Assembly (NCBI GenBank): GCA_025210805.1
Contig: JAOAQX010000023.1
Coordinates: 62,001-126,000, forward strand
Length of the DNA stretch: 64,000 nt
Direction of reading: 5' to 3'
Origin: Flavobacteriales bacterium
GTDB taxonomy: Bacteria > Bacteroidota > Bacteroidia > Flavobacteriales > CAJXXR01
Both the position numbers and the translations under genes were made by a program. The stretch's first letter is position 1. Each line of letters begins with the position of its first letter. Positions 3,894 to 61,066 of this stretch are shown one piece after another. Under the pieces are notes generated by a model. The model was not told where the DNA came from and did no database searches. It saw only the letters and a program-made list of their open reading frames with translations.

Positions 3894-4291
3894 TTGAACT
3901 AAACCCGTTTCACGGCTAGCTTTTCTCAAAAGTACATAAAACTACAAAATTCTCTAATTTTAAGAAATTTAAAGATCACCAAAAAAGACCTTTGATTGCT
4001 CAAAAGTCTTCTCTTTATCTTCTTAAGTCCTGAAAAATGGATTTGTATAGCCTAAACTTATTTGTCGCAAAACCCATATTTTGAAATGTTTTTCGAAACG
4101 CAAGTAAACCATTTCTCTGTATATTTTAAGAAAGGTGTAATGCCGATACATTACTAAAAGTCAATTATGAACAAAGTGAACTAATTGAATATTTAGTAAG
4201 TAATCGGTGCAACAGCTTGGTTTTTAGATAATCCCGATGTTTCGGGATCTTTAGGTTTTGCTCTGCGAGCAATCCGAAGACTTAGTTATTG
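3891..4291 (-). repeat. Spacer repeat A, copy 2 (full length)
   Basis: A full-length copy running on the plus strand from TTGAACTAAACCCG to GAAGACTTAGTTATTG. In order it holds the bidirectional terminator hairpin (3978-4012), a conserved AT-rich block, the 65-nt element (4143-4207), a small CCCGATGTTTCGGG palindrome, and the CTCTGCGAGCAATCCGAAGAC half-palindrome. It closely matches copy 7 at 49909-50312. It lies directly after the stop of the AbiJ-like gene on the minus strand. Confidence 0.9.
4143..4207. repeat. 65-nt conserved element, copy 1
   Basis: The element runs from CCGATACATTA to AAGTAATCGG. CCGAT pairs with ATCGG, TTACTAAA with TTTAGTAA, and TCAATTA with TAATTGA, so it can fold into one long hairpin. 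Other copies are at 17602, 50164 and 56372, all exactly 65 nt. Confidence 0.7.
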
Positions 4292-4301
4292 TAAACCGTT
4301 T

Positions 4302-5150
4302 TTATTTCTTACTTATTAAATAATTCACAAAAGCTGAACAGGCGATTAACATAAATCTAGCTTCTTCCATATCAACTTTCACATTTTTTTCAAGTAAAGA
4401 ATGTCTAATTCCACCTTCATCAGAAGTATAGCCATAAAGTGAACTAAACGCACTTTTAAGACTTTTTGGAATATTATGTTTTTTCTCGATAATCTTTAAT
4501 GCTTGACCTAATGTCGTTTTATTGTCTTGAACAATTATTTTTGATAGTGACTCCACGGCAGAAATTGATTCCTTAATCGAATTTCGATAATCAGGATCCT
4601 TTTTATCCGCATAAAGTTCAACAGCCCTTTTCAAATGGGTTTTTACAGAATTGAATTTTCCAGAATATTTAATGGCATTTTCAATTTTAACAACCTCTTC
4701 TTTAGAGTTAATTTCTACTAAATTCCCATCAACAAATCTGTAAGCTGACATCTCTCTTTTTAGAAATTCGTTAAACAGATTCGAATGTAAATTGTCGTCA
4801 TAGTTCACACAAAATTCAACAAAATCTAACGCTAAATCCCATTCGACTTTATAAAACCATTTCCTAACTTCATTTTGAGCTTCAGAGTATTGAACTTGTC
4901 CATAATAATTACGATATTGTATCGGAAGATTGTCAATCGGTCTTTTGAAAAAATGCATCCAAATACTCCGAAAAAGCTTGCTTCTTGGCGACCATTTTTC
5001 TCGTCCATATCTGTCAGTATCTTCGTTTTTAGATTCGATTACTAATTCGATAATCAATGTCCAAAGAGAGTTTCTAAGTTCAGGACTTAGGTTTTCTTTT
5101 TCAAGTTCAACTTTTATGGCCCTTTTTCCTATTCTTTGTGAAAATCTCAT
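4302..5150 (-). CDS. AbiJ-NTD4 family protein, probable phage-defence (abortive infection) gene
   Basis: A 282-residue protein. The N-terminus (FSQRIGKR..., then LSPELRNSLWTLI) has the pattern of AbiJ-NTD4 domains. The C-terminal part (about 190-282) is helical and contains SAVESLSK and GGIRHSLLE, a HEPN-like arrangement typical of abortive-infection proteins. Such proteins are thought to act as RNases or growth-arrest effectors; that activity is inferred from the family. The unit starts with GTTGTTGTAAACC and ends with GGTTTACAATAAC, complementary to each other, the clearest cassette-like boundary pair in the window. The leader repeat lies upstream, spacer A downstream. Confidence 0.75.
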   Translation of the reverse strand: MRFSQRIGKRAIKVELEKENLSPELRNSLWTLIIELVIESKNEDTDRYGREKWSPRSKLFRSIWMHFFKRPIDNLPIQYRNYYGQVQYSEAQNEVRKWFYKVEWDLALDFVEFCVNYDDNLHSNLFNEFLKREMSAYRFVDGNLVEINSKEEVVKIENAIKYSGKFNSVKTHLKRAVELYADKKDPDYRNSIKESISAVESLSKIIVQDNKTTLGQALKIIEKKHNIPKSLKSAFSSLYGYTSDEGGIRHSLLEKNVKVDMEEARFMLIACSAFVNYLISKK

Positions 5151-5172: not shown

Positions 5173-5430
5173 AACAACCATATAAACACACCCTCACAGA
5201 AAAAGGTGTGTTTATACACCTTATACGTTTATACTTTCTCTGTCATAATCAAAAACACAAAAAGCCCAGTAAATACAGGTTTTGGAAGTGAATCTAGAGG
5301 TACTATTTATATTTCTGAATATCATGAAACTAAGGTACAAAAAACAATTTTATGGAGAAAAATAACCGAATAATTATTCAGTTATTGTCTTTGGCTTTGT
5401 TTTCTAAAAAGTGTCAATAGCCCCGTTAGA
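5173..5430 (-). repeat. Leader repeat B, copy 1
   Basis: Lies immediately 5' (minus strand) of the AbiJ-like gene. Its first 57 bp (5173-5229) form an imperfect palindrome: AACAACC, then ATAAACACACC, a short loop, GGTGTGTTTAT, then GTATAAGG-type sequence and GTT, read on the plus strand. Then follows a conserved block (GCCCAGTAAATACAGG, AATCTAGAGGTACTATTT, CTAAGGTAC). The far end (about 5400-5430) resembles a degenerate TAGCCCCGATAGAGG element and overlaps the 3' end of the next gene. Copies: 17087, 18339, 53025. Confidence 0.88.
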
Positions 5431-8373: not shown

Positions 8374-8539
8374 TTCTATTTTTTTTAAGTGAGCGATAAG
8401 AAATACCAAAAATAACCATGTTATAATATAGGAAATATTCTTCCTTCGTGGCATTCAAAAACATCAATAATACAAAGGTTGGTAATTGATTTACAAAATT
8501 TTATTTTAATATTTCAGAATATCCCTCTAAGGTACAAAA

Positions 8540-15595: not shown

Positions 15596-15827
15596 GTTTG
15601 AACTAATCCCGCTTCACGGGTAGCTTTTCTCAAAGTACATAAAACTACAAAATTTCCAATTTTTACGGTAGTTAAGCAATATGAAAAAAGACCTTTGATT
15701 GCTCAAAAGTCTTTCAATATTTTCTAAAATCGCCTTATTTAGGGGTTTATTTAATCCCGATATGTTTCGAGATAAGGTTACGAGTTCAGATTTTGATCTG
15801 CGAGCAATCCGAAGACTTAGTTATTGT
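15596..15827 (-). repeat. Spacer repeat A, copy 3 (internally deleted)
   Basis: It begins TTTGAACTAATCCCGCTTCACGGG and ends CGAGCAATCCGAAGACTTAGTTATTG. It keeps the GACCTTTGATTGCTC terminator hairpin but lacks the 65-nt element and much of the central block, which is replaced by a different AT-rich sequence. It lies directly after the stop codon of the gene at 15838. Confidence 0.85.
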
Positions 15828-15837
15828 GTGCGTTTTT

Positions 15838-17064
15838 TTAATTCCCATGCATTATAGCAACTTTTTCAGCAAGTCTCCTTACCACGAATAGATATGGTAT
15901 AATCATGTGATTGTTCTTTTCCGTTGGAAGAATTACTTTATTTTCTCTTGATTCCCTTAAATGAACCATGGTATTCCTTATCCTTTCAATGTTATTCTTT
16001 ACTGTTCGCATTATTTGCTTTGGTGGTTTATCAATACACGATTCATCGTTTAAAATAGAGTCTAATTTAAAGCCACCATCAAACTCGAGCGGTTGAGTGA
16101 AGAACTGTAGATTCTTATTTAGTTCAATTTTAATGTCCTCAAAGGAACAATAGTCAACAATCGTTTTTTCCAATTTCATTGAGTCATCATTGTGTTTAAA
16201 GTTCTCCTTGAATTGATCCACAATGAGTTTAGTATATTCATTTGGATTGTTGAGTAAATCTGGTCTCTTAATTATGTCCCTTAGTTTCTTGGTCAAGTCA
16301 TCACTTAAATAGTAAAAAGAGCAATACTCAAGAATCTGGAAGTAAAAAAGGTATTTTAAACGAACGTTTTTTGTTTCTCTTGATATCTCAAACATATCCA
16401 ATAATACAGGGTCTATTGGGTTAAATGTGAGGGCTGAGGGGAATTGATTTTCATTTGTTAAGCATGGAACTTCATATTTTTCTTTCTCTGCTTTTTGTTC
16501 ATGGATAATAATTTTTGGACTACTTCGGTTATAATAAGTCACATAGAAGTTAAAATGCTTAGCAAAAAGTTTATAGTCTGCATTGGTAATTTGAAAATCA
16601 CCTTGAATTTTAAAACTTACAGGCTTTCTATTCTCGAAGTACTTCTGAACATATTTAGGCAAATCATCTTTTCGAAGAAAGTCTCTAAACTCCCTCAAAT
16701 TTCGGTAATCAGTAGATGAGCTTTCACTTAACTCACGAAAACCATTCGCCAATTTAAAAAGCTGCGGAGTTGGTTCTGTAAAACTACATTTATACTCTTT
16801 TCCTTCATAATGGAATGAAAAATCAGCAAAGTCAGTAAAATAGCTTTCGGATGCTGGTTGCATAATGAATTCTAATAGTTCCTCAGTAGTATGATGAACA
16901 GCAGATAATTCACTTGGGAAAGTCAGATTATTAAGAGTACTGTCAGCTTCTCCTTTCTTAAGACGTATCATAAATGTGTCATCGCCCCAAAGTTTTTTCA
17001 AGTTCAAATGCTCTGTTTCCTCTTCTATTACAATATTAGGGTTAAGTTTTTTTAGTTCCTTCAT
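15838..17064 (-). CDS. Hypothetical protein with a HEPN-like C-terminal motif
   Basis: A 408-residue cytoplasmic protein. I recognise no named family over its length. The C-terminal part is helical and contains R363-N-T-M-V-H368, the Rx4H signature of HEPN RNases, followed by a pattern found in large defence-associated HEPN proteins (LFYFQILEYCSFYYL around 240-255). The unit begins GTTGTTGTAGTGC and ends, in complement, GTTATTGTGTGC, a near match typical of cassette ends. The leader repeat is upstream and spacer A downstream. A defence role is inference from the motif and the company it keeps. Confidence 0.7.
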   Translation of the reverse strand: MKELKKLNPNIVIEEETEHLNLKKLWGDDTFMIRLKKGEADSTLNNLTFPSELSAVHHTTEELLEFIMQPASESYFTDFADFSFHYEGKEYKCSFTEPTPQLFKLANGFRELSESSSTDYRNLREFRDFLRKDDLPKYVQKYFENRKPVSFKIQGDFQITNADYKLFAKHFNFYVTYYNRSSPKIIIHEQKAEKEKYEVPCLTNENQFPSALTFNPIDPVLLDMFEISRETKNVRLKYLFYFQILEYCSFYYLSDDLTKKLRDIIKRPDLLNNPNEYTKLIVDQFKENFKHNDDSMKLEKTIVDYCSFEDIKIELNKNLQFFTQPLEFDGGFKLDSILNDESCIDKPPKQIMRTVKNNIERIRNTMVHLRESRENKVILPTEKNNHMIIPYLFVVRRLAEKVAIMHGN

Positions 17065-17086: not shown

Positions 17087-17413
17087 AACAACCATATAAA
17101 CACACCTTTACATACAAAGCCATATTCATAAGCCATTATATGTTTATACTTTCTCTGTCATAATCAAAAACACAAAAAGCCCAGTAAATACAGGTTTTGA
17201 GGTGAATCTAGAGGTACTATTTATATTTTTGAATATCATGAGACTAAGGTACAAAAAACAATTTTATGAAGGAAGGATAGGCGAATAATTATCCGTATAC
17301 TATTCGAATAATATACGACTATTTCTTTTGGTTGTTGTTATGTTTTTATTTCTCTGTACAATGTTTTTTAGCCCCGATAGAGGCGATATCCTTTTGTTTT
17401 TTGAAGAAAAACT
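17087..17413 (-). repeat. Leader repeat B, copy 2 (long form, left arm altered)
   Basis: It matches copy 4 at 53025 along most of its length, including the TATCCGTATACTATTCG block and the start of the TAGCCCCGATAGAGG element, and breaks off at TTGAAGAAAAAC. The palindromic first 58 bp (17087-17144) still has the AAC/GTT ends and ATAAACACACC, but the partner arm has diverged. It lies upstream of the HEPN-like gene. Confidence 0.87.
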
Positions 17414-17459
17414 AATTCTGTATTCTGCTTTACACCAAGCACGCATAAGAATACGGTCA
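17414..17459 (-). pseudogene. 46-bp fragment of the fumarylacetoacetase gene
   Basis: Bases 17414-17459 are identical to 53497-53542, which lie inside the 3' coding part of the fumarylacetoacetase gene 36 kb away. Short microhomologies (AAAAC on the left, GTCTTC on the right) mark the junctions with leader repeat B copy 2 and spacer A copy 4. It is non-functional and serves as a marker of past rearrangement. Confidence 0.9.
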
Positions 17460-17601
17460 AAGTCTTCTCTTTATCTTCTTAAGTCCTGAAAAATGGATTT
17501 GTATAGCCTAAATTTATTTGTCGCAAAACCCATAGTGTTTTGAAATGTTTTTCGAAACGCAAGTAAACCATTTTTCTGTGTAATTTAAGAAAGGTGTAAT
17601 G

Positions 17602-17688: not shown

Positions 17689-17735
17689 AACATTGTCTTC
17701 AGATTTTGCTCTGCGAGCAATCCGAAGACTTAGTT
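17689..17735 (-). other. attC-like recombination site (best example)
   Basis: A 47-bp imperfect palindrome. On the plus strand it reads AAC, ATT, GTCTTC, A, GATT, TT, GCTC, loop TGC, GAGC, AATC, C, GAAGAC, TTA, GTT. AAC pairs with GTT, the next three bases do not pair, then GTCTTC, GATT and GCTC pair with their partners, leaving one mismatch and an extra TT. Terminal AAC/GTT boxes, an unpaired spacer and unpaired extra bases are the hallmarks of attC sites. The known attC consensus R' is GTTRRRY; here the outer bases agree only in part. Confidence 0.6.
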
Positions 17736-17759
17736 ATTATGTGCTTTTTTTAATTTTCT

Positions 17760-18317
17760 CTATTTTTCAATTCTTTCATATTCAATATAAATTCCTTTAC
17801 ACCAATACTTTAAAATTGAGTCGCCATATAAGATAATATCATTACCCCATACTGATAAAACTGGAGTTAATTTCTTATTCTTAAAAACAACTAAAACTCT
17901 ATGTCCGAATAATGGTACAAATCCTTCAATCTGATTTGAGTTGAATCCAGCTTTTTCTAAAGTTTGTTTTGCATATTCAATATTGTAATTTACTTCATCA
18001 ATTAACCATTTTACACGATTTATATCATCTGGATATTTATAAAATCTTCTTACAAATTTATCTTCTTCCTCTCCCTCAGGATCAATAGATATTTCTAAAG
18101 TATCTAATCCATTAATCTCTTTAAGCATTTCTTTATAATCTGTTGGGAATTCAAATCCAAAATAATTCTCAAGACTAATTATTTCAGATTCTTTTAATCC
18201 TTGATTCCATTTAGATTTTTTTTGAATTTGGAATCCATAACAATCTTTATCAAGTATTATATTTTCAAATTTTCTTTCAGATTCTACTCTAAAATTAACC
18301 CATATATTTTTTTTCAT
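17760..18317 (-). CDS. SMI1/KNR4 (SUKH) family protein
   Basis: A 185-residue protein from the ATG at 18317; a longer frame starts upstream inside the leader repeat and is less likely. The SUKH pattern is visible in LKESEIISLENYFGFEFPTDYKEMLKEINGLD (here split by position: about 45-75) and in the C-terminal GFVPLFGHRVLVV/SVWGNDIILYG. SUKH proteins are usually immunity proteins against contact-dependent toxins or regulators. No toxin gene is next to it. The unit starts GTTGTTATGTGC and ends, in complement, GTTATTATGTGC, an excellent cassette-type boundary pair. Confidence 0.85.
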   Translation of the reverse strand: MKKNIWVNFRVESERKFENIILDKDCYGFQIQKKSKWNQGLKESEIISLENYFGFEFPTDYKEMLKEINGLDTLEISIDPEGEEEDKFVRRFYKYPDDINRVKWLIDEVNYNIEYAKQTLEKAGFNSNQIEGFVPLFGHRVLVVFKNKKLTPVLSVWGNDIILYGDSILKYWCKGIYIEYERIEK

Positions 18318-18338: not shown

Positions 18339-18610
18339 AACAACCATATAAACACACCCTTGCATAACATAGGTGTGTTTATACGCCTTATACGTTTATA
18401 CTTTCTTTGTCATAATCAAAAACACAAGAAGCCCAGTAAATACAGGTTTTGGAAGTGAATCTAGAGGTACTATTTATATTTTTGATTATCATGAGACTAA
18501 GGTACAAAAAACATTTTTATGAAGGAATAAATGCGACTATTGCTCTTAGTATTTGTTATATATTCTTTTCTGTACAATATTTCTAGCCCTGATAGATACG
18601 GTATCATGTG
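18339..18610 (-). repeat. Leader repeat B, copy 3
   Basis: It precedes the SMI1/KNR4 gene on the minus strand. The attC-like palindrome is 18339-18396: AACAACC, ATAAACACACC, loop, GGTGTGTTTAT, ACGCCTTATAC, GTT. Then come the conserved GCCCAGTAAATACAGG and AATCTAGAGGTAC blocks and, at the far end, a worn TAGCCCTGATAGATACGG element. Confidence 0.88.
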
Positions 18611-45438: not shown

Positions 45439-45559
45439 GTGCGCCTTGAATGGTAAATATAATCCTTTTCGAAAAGAAAATGATGTTCCCAATGGTTTAC
45501 AGCCCCTGATACGAGGAAGTAACGATACTAAATAAAGTAAGTGTGGCAAGGTTGTTACC
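45439..45559 (+). mobile_element. Group II intron-like 5' fragment, copy 1
   Basis: GTGCGCC (45439-45445) resembles a group II intron 5' end. The next 108 bp (ATGGTAAATATAATCC... to GGTTGTTACC) match 47431-47537 with few differences. After GTTGTTACC the two copies diverge. It lies at the junction before the VOC gene and faces opposite to the cassette genes. No reverse transcriptase is present. The match to a group II intron is my recognition of pattern, not a search. Confidence 0.4.
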
Positions 45560-47414: not shown

Positions 47415-47661
47415 GTGCATGTATCACGAATGGTAAATTTAATCCTTTTCGAAAAGAAAATGATGTTCCCAATGGTTTAAAGTCCCTGATGCGAGGAAGT
47501 GACGATACTAAATAAAGTAAGTGGCAAGGTTGTTACCTGTAAGGGTAGGGTATCACCACAAAAAGACTTGTACAACGTGAATTTATAAGTCTATCAAACT
47601 ACTCTCCCAAGTAAGTATCATTATTGAACCGCCGTATACGAGACCCGTACGTACGGTGGTG
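47415..47661 (+). mobile_element. Group II intron-like remnant, copy 2 (5' fragment plus domain V-like hairpin)
   Basis: It begins GTGCATG and shares 47431-47537 with copy 1. It continues to a hairpin at 47627-47661 (ACCGCCGTATACG...CGTACGTACGGTGGT) that looks like group II intron domain V as found after bacterial maturase genes. The reverse transcriptase frame is absent, so about 2 kb would be deleted. It is opposite in orientation to the cassette genes. Bases 47662-47777 hold no gene. Confidence 0.45.
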
Positions 47662-49866: not shown

Positions 49867-49911
49867 AACACTAAATGCAGATGGACGTTTTAATTCCGTT
49901 TGCATCTTGTT
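49867..49911 (-). other. attC-like site between the Fic and STAND units
   Basis: On the minus strand it reads AAC, AAG, ATGCAAACGGA, a short loop ATTAAAACG, TCCATCTGCAT, TTAGT, GTT, then GTAGCTC. The arms ATGCAAACGGA and TCCATCTGCAT pair at 9 of 11 positions. The right end is the start of the Fic unit, the left end is the left border of spacer repeat A copy 7. Confidence 0.55.
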
Positions 49912-50312
49912 GAACTAAACCCGCTTCACGGGTAGCTGATTTCTCAAAAGTACATAAAACTACAAAATTCTTTAATTTTAAGAAATTTAAAGATCATGAA
50001 AAAAGACCTTTGATTGCTCAAAAGTCTTCTCTTTATCTTCTTAAGTCCTGAAAAATGGATTTGTAAAGCCTAAACTTATTTGTCGCAAAACCCATAGTGT
50101 TTTGAAATGTTTTTCGAAACGTAAGTAAACCATTTCTCTGTGTAATTTAAGAAAGGTGAAATGCCGATACATTACTAAAAGTCAATTATGAACAAAGTGA
50201 ACTAATTGAATATTTAGTAAGTAATCGGTGCAACAGCGTGGGTTTTAGTCAATCCCGATGTTTCGGGATCTTCAGATTTTGCTCTGCGAGCAATCCGAAG
50301 ACTTAGTTATTT
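49909..50312 (-). repeat. Spacer repeat A, copy 7 (full length; non-coding cassette)
   Basis: A full copy. Its inner part begins GTTGAACTAAACCCGC (plus strand) and ends GCGTGGGTTTTAGTCAA at about 50257, an inverted repeat like the two ends of a cassette. Inside are the terminator hairpin (about 50000-50030), an AT-rich conserved block and the 65-nt element. After it come the CCCGATGTTTCGGG palindrome and the attC-like right end next to the STAND gene stop. Confidence 0.88.
50164..50228. repeat. 65-nt conserved element, copy 3
   Basis: Identical to the copy at 4143 and within spacer repeat A copy 7. Confidence 0.7.
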
Positions 50313-50326
50313 TAGCAACTGGGCTT

Positions 50327-52987
50327 TTATTCAATTTTTATATTTTTTGCACATTCTCCTTCAAAATTTTGTCCTAATTCAAAACTCACTAATTGACCAT
50401 TATCAATTTTTTTCCATTCAGTACGGTTATTAATATCAATGAAGTCAACCATATTAGCGTAATGTCGTTTATTTTCAGATTCGATAAATACAAAAGGTTT
50501 GCTTATGTTACTCTTACTTCTTGAAATTACTCCCATAATTCTTTCATTAGAGTTTGATGAAGAATCATCTAATAAATAGTTTAAGGAGAAATCATCAAAT
50601 TTATCCGAATACCTATGTACAATTTTATGCTTTAATTGTGTTAGACCTATTTTTGAATTGTTTTTTATAATTAATTCTTTAAAATAATTTTTGTCTACCT
50701 CGTCTGATAAAACAGGAATTTGTTGTAGACAAGCTAAAAGTGTCTCACAAAAATTCTTAATCATTTTAGGGTCTAAAATATTTTTATTGTAACATTCTTC
50801 ATAAACTGATATTGATTTTTTAAAATGACGTAGTGCATTATCATAATCTTTTTCAATTCTTGAAAAACTTTGTCCCATATGATTATAAAGAGAAATAAGC
50901 TCAGTATAAGCTACACGCTCATTTTTAGAATCTAACTCTGTATCTAGTAGAAGTTTTATTTTATGAACACCTTTATTGTATTCTCTTTTTGTATTGTAGA
51001 TACGAACAAATAAAAATGTTACAATTGGATGTTCAGGTTTTAATTCAAATAGTTTGTCGGCATAAATAAGTGAATTATCACTATCGTCCATTTGAAACAG
51101 TAAGAATTGAGAATAGAAAAATAGTAGTTTTGGGCTATTAGGAGCAACTTCAAGACCTAACTGATAATCATCATCAGCACCTAAAACATTACCTTCAGTT
51201 GCTTTAATAAAGGCTCCGACACGATAAGTTTCAAAATAACTAGGAATTATATTACGTGCTTCTTCTACTTTTCTTAGCGCATTAGGATAATCTTTTTTCC
51301 AAGATAGAGATAAGGCTTCTGTTAAAAATTTTGCAGCTATTTTTTCATTTGAATCTTTGTAAGAAATTGCATTAATGTCAAATTCGTTATAAGAATTTAT
51401 CTTTTTTAATTGTGCAGTAGAATTTGTTAGTTCTCTTATTTTTCTAGAAATTGATTTGACATAGTTAATTTCGATAGGGTGAGTTTTTGTCAAGAAATCC
51501 TTAGCAAAATCAGATATATAATAACTAGTATCTTCAATATTTTCTCTATCATTTATTTCACTACTTACAAGTGTTGTTCTAAAAAGTTCAAGTAAATATT
51601 GTCGGACGAGTATTGGTTCAATTTCAGCTAAATATATAATTTCTGCGGTACGCAAACTTTTTCTTGCAGCTCTAATTGTATCTAAAATATTTTTCGCCCC
51701 ATCACTCAGTTTATGATAAACATTTGTTAAACAGAAATTTAACAAATCGTTTTTGTTACTCAGAACCTCAGAAGGCGAAATTCCAGCTTCAACAGTACTT
51801 ACAAACCATTTAATTGCTAATGGATTGTAATAAAGTTTGGAAGATATATCGACTAAAGTTTTTTGAGGTAAGTTTATTAAAGTATCACTATTACGTATTT
51901 TAGCAATTCCTCTGATTAATCTAGTAGATTCATTTTCTGAAAAACCTTTTAGTTTTCTACGATATTCTAGCTCTCCTAGACCAATTCTAGAAGTTATTAA
52001 AATTGTGCTCTTCATTTGAGCTTCTCGTATAAAATTTATTACTTCTTCACTTTGAATTGTCTCTAAATTATCTATAATTATTAGGGTTTTGAATAGGCTT
52101 AAATATTCAAGTATTTGTTCAAGTTTGTTTTGAGATTGTTCAACCTCTAGTGTTTCAGAAATCAAATCAATTAAACCAGTATAGTTGGTGATTGTGTTAT
52201 GTATCTCTTCAATACCTTTTGAAGTTAACATAGTTGTTTTTGCGGATGTCCATATAATTAATTCAAATGGACTGTTTTCTCCCATATCTACTATGTCATA
52301 AGCAATTTTCAACGCTAAGGCTGTTTTACCAATTCCTCCGTCACCAATTATGCTTACAACTGAATTGCTGAAAATTAGTTTTTTTATATCTTCAACATCA
52401 TTTTTTCTTCCAATAAACCCAGTTTCATCAAAATCTGGTCTAGGTAAATTATGAATAACATTTTTTTCTATATTTTCTCTTTCAACTGTTGGTATAGTTA
52501 AAGTAAGAACATATGTAGGGTCTTTTTCAATTTTTTCCCTTGTCTCTAATGTTATATTCCATTCAATAGGAGAACTTTTTTTTATTTTGGAAACGAAATC
52601 GTAAATTACAGAAAAATCACCTCCAAGTAGTGGCCTAGTATGCATTACTCTATTTCTAATAGGAGTTATTTCAGACAACTCATTAAAAATACTCTTTAAG
52701 TATGTACTAGCTTCTTTTGTTAAGAAGGTATTATTTTTATTCAAGATAGTAAACGTATCATGAAAATCTAAAAAATCAATAGCCTCATCAATATTGTTTA
52801 AAATATCAGAACCAGGATTGTCTTTTTGATATCTTGCAATAACTTTTTCTTCAAGTTCTGTGTTTTTGAAAAAAGTTAAATCTGAATAATATGGAACTAT
52901 AAATCTATTTATGGTTGATTTTAAATCAATTTCTAGACCATAAATTAGAGCTGCTAGAGTTAATCTTACTTCTGTTATTTTTGACAT
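50327..52987 (-). CDS. HEPN-like/NB-ARC (STAND)/TPR/cold-shock-like protein, putative defence NLR
   Basis: An 886-residue protein. The N-terminal helical domain (1-130) carries R111-N-R-V-M-H116, a HEPN RNase-type Rx4H. NB-ARC NTPase: FIGRKNDVEDIKKLI, P-loop GDGGIGKT at about 215-222, Walker B LIIIDN at about 302-307, ILITSRIGLGE sensor. Then winged-helix and TPR-like repeats (about 560-800), and a last 70 residues resembling a cold-shock/OB domain (FVFIESENKRHYANMVDF, then NGQLVSFELGQNFEGECAKN). STAND proteins sense a phage or stress signal with their repeats and switch on the N-terminal effector. It heads cluster III behind leader repeat B. Confidence 0.8.
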   Translation of the reverse strand: MSKITEVRLTLAALIYGLEIDLKSTINRFIVPYYSDLTFFKNTELEEKVIARYQKDNPGSDILNNIDEAIDFLDFHDTFTILNKNNTFLTKEASTYLKSIFNELSEITPIRNRVMHTRPLLGGDFSVIYDFVSKIKKSSPIEWNITLETREKIEKDPTYVLTLTIPTVERENIEKNVIHNLPRPDFDETGFIGRKNDVEDIKKLIFSNSVVSIIGDGGIGKTALALKIAYDIVDMGENSPFELIIWTSAKTTMLTSKGIEEIHNTITNYTGLIDLISETLEVEQSQNKLEQILEYLSLFKTLIIIDNLETIQSEEVINFIREAQMKSTILITSRIGLGELEYRRKLKGFSENESTRLIRGIAKIRNSDTLINLPQKTLVDISSKLYYNPLAIKWFVSTVEAGISPSEVLSNKNDLLNFCLTNVYHKLSDGAKNILDTIRAARKSLRTAEIIYLAEIEPILVRQYLLELFRTTLVSSEINDRENIEDTSYYISDFAKDFLTKTHPIEINYVKSISRKIRELTNSTAQLKKINSYNEFDINAISYKDSNEKIAAKFLTEALSLSWKKDYPNALRKVEEARNIIPSYFETYRVGAFIKATEGNVLGADDDYQLGLEVAPNSPKLLFFYSQFLLFQMDDSDNSLIYADKLFELKPEHPIVTFLFVRIYNTKREYNKGVHKIKLLLDTELDSKNERVAYTELISLYNHMGQSFSRIEKDYDNALRHFKKSISVYEECYNKNILDPKMIKNFCETLLACLQQIPVLSDEVDKNYFKELIIKNNSKIGLTQLKHKIVHRYSDKFDDFSLNYLLDDSSSNSNERIMGVISRSKSNISKPFVFIESENKRHYANMVDFIDINNRTEWKKIDNGQLVSFELGQNFEGECAKNIKIE

Positions 52988-53024: not shown

Positions 53025-53307
53025 AACAACCGAATAAACACACCCTAGCATAACATAGGTGCATTTATACGCCTTATACGTTTATATTCTTTCTGTCATA
53101 ATCAAAAACACAAAAAGCCCAGTAAATACAGGTTTTGGAAGTGAATCTAGAGGTACTATTTATATTTTTGAATATCATAAGACTAAGGTACAAAAAACAA
53201 TTTTATGAAAGAAGGATAGACGAATAATTATCCGTATACTATTCGAATAATATGCGACTATTGCTTTTTGGTTTTTGTTGGGTTTTTATTTCTCTGGACA
53301 ATGTTTG
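53025..53307 (-). repeat. Leader repeat B, copy 4
   Basis: It precedes the STAND gene. The attC-like palindrome is 53025-53082 (AACAACC, ATAAACACACC, loop, GGTGCATTTAT, ACGCCTTATAC, GTT). Beyond it are the shared GCCCAGTAAATACAGG, AATCTAGAGGTACTATTT and TATCCGTATACTATTCG blocks, then a Flavo-1-like element and the fumarylacetoacetase gene. Confidence 0.88.
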
Positions 53308-53386
53308 TTAGCCCCGATAGAGGCGGTATCCTTTTGTTTTTTGAAGAAAAACAAAAGATAAAGCCGAAAGCGGGAAATAGCTCCTA
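53308..53386 (+). ncRNA. Flavo-1-like structured element
   Basis: TTAGCCCCGATAGAGGCGG, TATCCTTTTGTTTTT, a loop, AAAAACAAAAGATA, then AAGCGGGAAATAGCTCC. A long inner hairpin (CTTTTGTTTTT/AAAAACAAAAG) and an outer AGCnCCCG...CGGG...GCT pairing are visible. It resembles the Flavo-1 RNA motif that recurs between genes in Flavobacteriia; I rely on memory for that. Worn or cut versions lie at the ends of leader copies 1, 2 and 3. Confidence 0.5.
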
Positions 53387-53454: not shown

Positions 53455-54726
53455 TTATTTTGCAGGAAGCATTTTTGTGTTTATTTCACCAAAACCAATT
53501 CTGTATTCTGCTTTACACCAAGCACGCATAAGAATACGGTCATTGTCTTCAATAAATGTTCTGATTTCTCCGCTTGGTAGCTCTATTTTTTTGGATCCTG
53601 CCCAAGAGAGTTCGAGCATAGAACCATAAGCAGATTCATCGTTTCCTGAAATAGTACCAGATGCCATCATATCACCTGCGTTTATATTACAACCATTGAT
53701 GGTGTGGTGTGCAAGTTGTTGGTTCATATTCCAGTACATATATTTGTAGTTAGACAATGCCAAACGGTGAGGTGCATTCATTTGTTCAGACTGTAACAGT
53801 ACTTCCAGTTTGATGTCTAAGTTTTTATTTCCTTCATATTCTAGATAAGGCAAAACTTTTGGGTCTTGTACTTCATTTTCACATCGGAAAGGCTCCAGGG
53901 CATCTAGAGTAACGATCCATGGAGAAATGGAAGAGGCAAAGTTTTTCCCTAAGAATGGTCCTAGTGGTACATATTCCCATCCTTGGATATCACGAGCAGA
54001 CCAATCATTAAAAATTACCATTCCGAAGATATAATCATCTGCTTCAGCTGTGGAAATAGAGTCTCCTAGCGGTTTTCCTTGTCCTGTGATAAATGCCATT
54101 TCTAATTCAAAATCCATTCTTTTTGAAGGTCCAAAAGTAGGATCTGTAGCATCTTTTGCTTTTTGTTGTCCTTTTGGTCTATAGATATCTTGGTCTCCAA
54201 GAATAATTGAGCTGGCTCTTCCGTGGTATCCTACAGGCAGTCTTTTCCAGTTGGGCATGATTGCATTATCTGGGTCACGAAACATGCATCCTACATTGTA
54301 AGCATGTTGACGAGAAGAATAAAAATCTGTGTAATCTCCCACAAAAACAGGCATTTCCATAGTTACCTCAGAAAGTGGAATTAAAATTTGATTTTTGTGG
54401 TCTTCGTTATTTTTTAACGAATCATTTTCACTATCAAATATTTCAGAAATTCGTTCTCTTACCGCTCTCCAAACAGTTTTTGTAAGTTCTAAGAAAGGAT
54501 TTAGATTATCGTGTGCAAAGATGTTTTCAGGAAGATCGATACCTTCAAAATATCCAAGTTCTTGCATGGCATCTAGGTTTATGGCTGTTTCACCTATTCT
54601 AGAAAGACCTACAATACTGTTATTTCCTTTTCTACCAGCTCCAAAAGGAATGTTTTGAATAGGGAAATCAGAGTTTTCTTCTACTGAAATCCACGATTTT
54701 TTATGAGGATTATTTGCTAAAATCAT
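53455..54726 (-). CDS. Fumarylacetoacetase
   Basis: A 423-residue enzyme of the FAH family, with the N-terminal SH3-like domain (PIQNIPFGAG) and the catalytic core. Seen: VFVGDYTDFYSSRQHAYNVG (metal-binding Asp), GYHGRASSIILG (catalytic His), FELEMAFITG and VIFNDWSARDIQGWEYVPLGPFLGK over about 230-255. It hydrolyses fumarylacetoacetate to fumarate and acetoacetate, the last step of tyrosine breakdown. A 46-bp piece of its 3' region is duplicated at 17414. A TACATTTG -7 box lies 21 nt upstream. Confidence 0.95.
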   Translation of the reverse strand: MILANNPHKKSWISVEENSDFPIQNIPFGAGRKGNNSIVGLSRIGETAINLDAMQELGYFEGIDLPENIFAHDNLNPFLELTKTVWRAVRERISEIFDSENDSLKNNEDHKNQILIPLSEVTMEMPVFVGDYTDFYSSRQHAYNVGCMFRDPDNAIMPNWKRLPVGYHGRASSIILGDQDIYRPKGQQKAKDATDPTFGPSKRMDFELEMAFITGQGKPLGDSISTAEADDYIFGMVIFNDWSARDIQGWEYVPLGPFLGKNFASSISPWIVTLDALEPFRCENEVQDPKVLPYLEYEGNKNLDIKLEVLLQSEQMNAPHRLALSNYKYMYWNMNQQLAHHTINGCNINAGDMMASGTISGNDESAYGSMLELSWAGSKKIELPSGEIRTFIEDNDRILMRAWCKAEYRIGFGEINTKMLPAK

Positions 54727-60745: not shown

Positions 60746-60773
60746 GATGTTCTCTATACAATTTTTATATATC

Positions 60774-61066
60774 TGTCAGATCGAGTGATTTCTTTGAAGA
60801 GAAACGGAAAAGAAATTGTATCGAGTATGTCAGTTCGAGTGATTTCTTTGAAGAGCAGCGGAAAAGAAATTGTATCGAGAACTTTGACAACCATACGCAT
60901 TCTCGATAAAATTTTTGATTTCATTGCATTCCATCAAAAATCACTCGAACTGACAAAGGTGTACATTTTTTATATCTCTGTCAGTTCGAGTGATTTCTTT
61001 GTAGAGAAACGGAAAAGAAATTGTATCGAGAACTTTTACCATTCATCAAAAACCATTCGAATTGAC
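60774..61066. repeat. Cluster of TTCGAGTGATTT...ATCGAGAA palindromic repeats
   Basis: Three direct copies of about 55 bp (60774-60826, 60829-60884, 60978-61035) plus one inverted copy (60899-60953) and a partial one. Each begins GTCAGTTCGAGTGATTTCTTTG and ends AAATTGTATCGAGAAC, so each can fold on itself. Similar repeats are common between genes in Flavobacteriia. No gene in 60746-61152. Confidence 0.85.

Follow-up and report, generated by a model that had tools for sequence, protein, structure and literature searches.

The repeat B, which occurs four times in the window (the whole 64,000-nucleotide stretch analysed here), is very probably a copied attI end, originating from a flavobacterial chromosomal integron and made up of a promoter-like box, a leader, a hairpin and the joining GTT. 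An earlier note had read B as an attI-like landing site copied to several loci, and this agrees with what we find: the genome holds about 24 copies, two of which lie behind integrase remnants. The reading is carried by the anatomy of the repeat, the complementarity between the starts and ends of the cassettes, the adjacency to integrase remnants, the recurrence of the same order in relatives and the covariation of the hairpin. The usual picture of an integron is a single platform with a single attI, and searches for integrons rely on the IntI-specific domain; two points were unexpected here, namely that the recombinase is without this domain and that orphan attI sites, with no integrase, occur in six further genomes.

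Anatomy of B and of the cassettes behind it

The four copies found by the window search (E 1e-74 to 1e-147; 89–93% identity across 189–283 bp) start exactly where the earlier note had placed them, at 5173, 17087, 18339 and 53025, and each stands, as it had said, directly 5′ of a minus-strand gene; the features that follow are likewise on the minus strand. Copy 1 (5173–5377, hairpin 5182–5215) precedes an AbiJ_NTD4 cassette gene (4302–5150; PADLOC PDC-S32) with a compact attC at 4250–4298, copy 2 (17087–17366) a 408-aa cassette gene without a Pfam match (15838–17064, ending in a compact attC at 15785–15833), and copy 3 (18339–18527, hairpin 18348–18382) a cassette gene of the SUKH/SMI1-KNR4 family (17760–18317, compact attC 17698–17746). 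Copy 4, with its crossover end at 53025, comprises the core unit common to full-length copies (53025–53213: promoter-like box, leader, attI hairpin and GTTGTT crossover) and an outer tail that is present in a subset of copies only (53214–53307) and borders a match to the Flavo-1 RNA. Its hairpin spans 53033–53069, with one arm altered in part, and GTACCTTAG at 53183–53191 is a candidate −7 box resembling TAnnTTTG. The gene behind this copy encodes an 886-aa NB-ARC/STAND ATPase (50327–52987) and ends in a compact attC (50271–50319) that mismatches the start after copy 4, such that the 53025 cassette looks rearranged.

Other parts of the earlier description needed revision. The conserved tail motif CTAAGGTAC is present in all four copies (5330, 17244, 18497 and 53183) but also at 8527, outside any B; the supposed 57–58-bp palindrome is an inverted repeat of about 35 bp; and the arms ATAAACACACC/GGTGTGTTTAT, attributed to every copy, are exact at 5173 and 18339, with one arm changed elsewhere. 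Nor is B found at the head of each cluster: what it precedes is a single cassette, in places with such units in tandem (C23:182.9–185.1 kb), and the cluster at 42–50 kb has no internal B.

A genome-wide search for further copies, as had been proposed, gave 26 matches in the 3.12-Mb genome, with about 24 B-type ends. Their positions are tied to genes, the alternative having been that they are not; 23 of 24 ends precede, within 60 bp, an ATG-initiated ORF of 110 aa or more, compared with 41 of 350 other GTTGTT sites (12%). Read in gene orientation, B runs from a box (TTTTTTGTACCTTAG) through a leader of ~125 bp, a hairpin (typically TATAAACACACC...GGTGTGTTTATA) and two to three bases to GTTGTT, immediately past which the copies diverge, marking the start of cassette-specific sequence. 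The outer border of the aligned block is also sharp, lying just upstream of the box at an end point common to 19 copies; in 19 aligned copies the TAYCTTAG box is conserved, and the distance from box to crossover is 168–179 bp. The B box reads TACCTTAG, differing from TAnnTTTG, and no clear −33 box is found 19–21 bp upstream of it; judged from these letters, it is a candidate Bacteroidota-type promoter box that would express the cassette gene.

Nearly all B copies of this genome sit behind the 3′ end of a co-directional gene, a pattern less clear in relatives; the nearest upstream gene is co-directional with the cassette at 22 of 23 copies, and some of these genes are themselves cassettes. Flavo-1 RNA (RF01705) borders the outer end of three copies (window 53306–53381, plus strand; C23:155526–155601; C23:172095–172173). 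At gathering score, Rfam matched Flavo-1 solely at this outer border and nothing inside B, and the idea of B as a known RNA was set aside. The tail contains a 34-codon frame that is open in most copies, yet frameshifted in several, and is therefore not called coding; it is also without tyrosine-recombinase sequence, which argues against B being the 3′ end of another integrase.

The bases past GTTGTT are complementary to those closing the same gene unit, as in GTAAACC...GGTTTACAATAAC at 5173 (GGTTTAC before the attC), ATGTGC...GCACATAATAAC at 18339 (GCACAT before the attC) and ATATGGC...GCCATATAATAAC at C34:97829. Over eight pairs this complementarity scores 55, against 33.3 ± 4.1 in permuted pairs (0 of 5000 permutations reach 55), and a stricter exact rule finds matching ends at 6 of 24 sites versus 10 of 548 mismatched pairs. 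Such start/end complementarity is the R′/R″ relation, the attC geometry of integron cassettes, which are thus bounded here by a GTT start and a complementary ...AAC end; the gene end that they share, AACTAAGTCTTCGGATTGCTCGCAGAGCAAAATCTGAAGAC...GTT, represents a compact attC. For about half of the 24 sites, 53025 among them, no clear R″ partner lies within 5 kb, so that many cassettes are eroded or rearranged. The cargo includes defence genes (Septu-like PtuA, AbiJ-like).

Spacer A, of which one copy lies at 49905–50250 (minus strand, borders approximate), starts with GTTGACTAAAACCC, carries terminator-like and TACTTTTG boxes and ends with GGGTTTAGTTCAACA. We read it as a cassette that lacks a gene but brings a promoter-like box of its own; it sits behind gene cassettes and recalls the promoter cassettes described in Vibrio (PMC11014356). 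The window also holds a 96-nt repeat (45448–45543 and 47428–47523, 95% identity) behind short genes, which is not B, A or compact attC, and a ~69-nt repeat in three copies (60757–61030).

Recombinase remnants, intact relatives and the attI hairpin

Whether an integrase adjoins any B copy had been put forward as a check, and two copies follow immediately after 3′ fragments of a single tyrosine-recombinase gene. At C34:97535–97777 the last 81 codons of the recombinase are followed directly by the B palindrome, GTTGTT and a PtuA/HNH-type cassette, and at C23:~157,560–157,641 a stretch of 25 codons from the same 3′ end precedes another B palindrome. Homology of these two copies to B covers only ~55 bp, the B tail having no counterpart there. 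An intact cognate recombinase was not found in the assembly; the other recombinases of the genome, considered as the cognate, were read as XerC/XerD-like, element-type and tandem types. An adjacent pair of tyrosine-recombinase genes (339 and 303 aa) is located at C21:12.0–13.8 kb.

Full-length recombinase is present, at E ≤ 1e-100, in 16 of 396 genomes of the order, holders including Winogradskyella ursingii, Seonamhaeicola aphaedonensis and a Maribacter bin; one genome (G372) has two full copies. These other Flavobacteriales bear out the attI reading in that an intact recombinase gene, hairpin, GTT and cassettes follow in the same order, the gap between gene end and hairpin-GTT being 44 bp in seven genomes and reaching 67 bp elsewhere. 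Beyond this point, co-oriented short genes are separated by ordinary attC sites (103 GTTN7...N7′AAC pairs, where the flipped control has 14 and shuffles have 13.5). An attI beside its integrase, with cassettes running from it, is therefore found in the relatives, and the genome under study has the 3′ remnants only. The attI of Seonamhaeicola, ATAAACACACTAGTGTGTTTAT, comes close to the B palindrome. A TAnnTTTG/TAnnTTAG box is contained in the final codons and stop of the relatives' recombinase gene (e.g. L244, L252), which means that cassette promoter and stop codon may overlap.

The recombinase is not a canonical IntI and is without the IntI-specific domain. The protein of the relatives aligns to 2a3v, an integron integrase structure, over two separate segments (13–181 and 242–317), leaving out chain residues 182–241, and against TIGR02249 it scores 210.6, below the cut-off of 265, again in two stretches. 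The solved structures nearest to its model are XerA and IntI; an extra ~100 residues at the N-terminus have no Pfam match.

Comparison of 21 sites from different genomes informs on the hairpin itself. In this alignment 94.3% of cells are paired, a figure helped by trimming by hand around the hairpin, and 36 cells carry changes in both partners, a count that the trimming does not favour (mean of 11.4 after shuffling); the covariation score is 0.452 versus 0.135 for shuffled sequences and at most 0.125 for slid versions. By this measure it is the structure of the attI hairpin that is conserved across genera, and its covariation argues that B is attI-derived. The covariation claim is drawn from the cross-genome sites and none of it from B copies alone, in which 93.7% of cells are paired in the corrected register (slide +2); arm changes in the other B copies are mostly one-sided and mostly to G-T pairs, with about 94% of pairs keepable.

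The motif TATCCAATTGTTR occurs at 24 places in six relatives, 15 with a hairpin and nine without, and an exact 9-bp partner end lies downstream of 13 of the 15 hairpin places, compared with one of the nine lacking a hairpin. Nine of the 15, in these six other genomes, differ from the linked site and are orphan attI sites: in eight of them the similarity to the linked site extends over only ~30–113 bp and includes nothing of the recombinase, and the ninth, in G397, retains ~650 bp of that gene. G399 has a second ATAAACACAC palindrome, located ahead of GTTGGCAAC and a gene, which was left uncounted because its matching end was not found. Instead of one attI per integron, the tally is thus about 24 B-type ends in this genome and nine orphans in the other six.

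Origin and possible use of the dispersed copies

In the mechanism that we propose, a tyrosine recombinase, now lost here except for the two 3′ fragments, would have joined the attC of a cassette to the GTT of B, the attC substrate probably being single-stranded at this step. The cassette gene would thereby come to lie immediately after B and would be expressed from the B promoter. From the sequences we infer recombination at B, whose copies may also have served as landing sites in trans.

As to how B was copied, we lean slightly towards lost platforms plus duplication over a spread of bare sites; recombinase remnants behind two B copies and in G397 favour the former, and the short length common to most orphans favours the latter. 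There is close to an even chance that the orphans are scars, whole platforms having been acquired or duplicated repeatedly and the recombinase then lost, such that promoter, attI and first cassette remain and no site ever worked alone. The 25 and 81 codons retained by two copies of this genome, the G397 orphan with its ~650 bp and the two full recombinase copies of G372 would all fit this history, as would a mark of duplication in the window: the upstream flank of copy 2 (17415–17460) contains a fragment like the 3′ end of a 423-aa gene adjacent to copy 4 (53455–54726, at 53498–53543), and this fragment, common to the flanks of the copies at 17087 and 53025, shows duplication in one case. Scars sit less easily, however, with the lack of recombinase sequence and the ~30–113 bp of shared length in eight of the nine relatives' orphans, or with 19 B copies that end at one point just upstream of the promoter box and not randomly. 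A distributed integron, in which a domain-less recombinase would act in trans on many hairpin attI sites and capture single cassettes, each with its own promoter and not in one array, is conceivable, and we advance it only tentatively.

The main reason for the retention of B may be its role as promoter and as a hairpin leader at the mRNA 5′ end, recombination having ended long ago, an option that we consider rather doubtful and that is compatible with the attI explanation. The spacing of promoter, hairpin and gene is fixed, differences among B copies mostly leave G-T/G-U pairs and the recombinase is lost in this genome, all as such a leader would have it; yet it leaves the cassette start/end complementarity and the attC sites unexplained, and the hairpin of the relatives goes together with the integrase gene. 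An ordinary MITE-like transposable repeat with a promoter by chance would also be multicopy and short with an internal palindrome, but the sharp end of B is always GTTGTT beside a gene start, in a single orientation and with a variable outer end, and its palindrome, where it follows a recombinase gene, shows covariation across genera, making this origin highly improbable.

The reading of B as a copied attI end has consequences for how integrons are sought. If a domain-less recombinase serves classic attC arrays, surveys that require the domain would miss such arrays, and dispersed attI copies would alter the placement and expression of captured genes. It also raises a testable question, namely whether a recombinase without the domain can use an attI of hairpin form.

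Relation to known integrons

We found no prior description of a dispersed flavobacterial attI system in the open-access literature, and its novelty is provisional; for Bacteroidetes, IntegronFinder 2.0 recorded only In0 elements and one complete integron, in Salinibacter (PMC9024848). Treponema-type integrons (PMC3607928) resemble the present system in that the recombinase is transcribed toward attI, in the direction of the cassettes, as it is here, and gene-less promoter cassettes are reported there; that paper describes one attI per integron, whereas here there are many orphan attI copies, the attI is a covarying hairpin and the recombinase is without the IntI-specific domain. Sedentary chromosomal integrons of the Vibrio type, with canonical IntI, share the cassette geometry, R′/R″ complementarity and attC sites, together with arrays of co-oriented short genes and gene-less promoter-like cassettes (PMC11014356). 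The flavobacterial system departs from them in the other orientation of its recombinase, which has no IntI domain and an extra ~100-aa N-terminal domain, and in its dispersed attI. The attI-type gene cassettes of mobile integrons (PMC12901181) likewise place attI copies off the platform and beside cassette genes, but these are partial attI1/attI2 at the ends of cassettes in mobile class 1/2 integrons, whereas B lies upstream of its gene and has a promoter-like box. CALIN, or integron remnants, similarly consist of cassettes without a nearby integrase; they are defined by attC clusters (IntegronFinder 2.0, PMC9024848), whereas here each cassette retains its own attI head.
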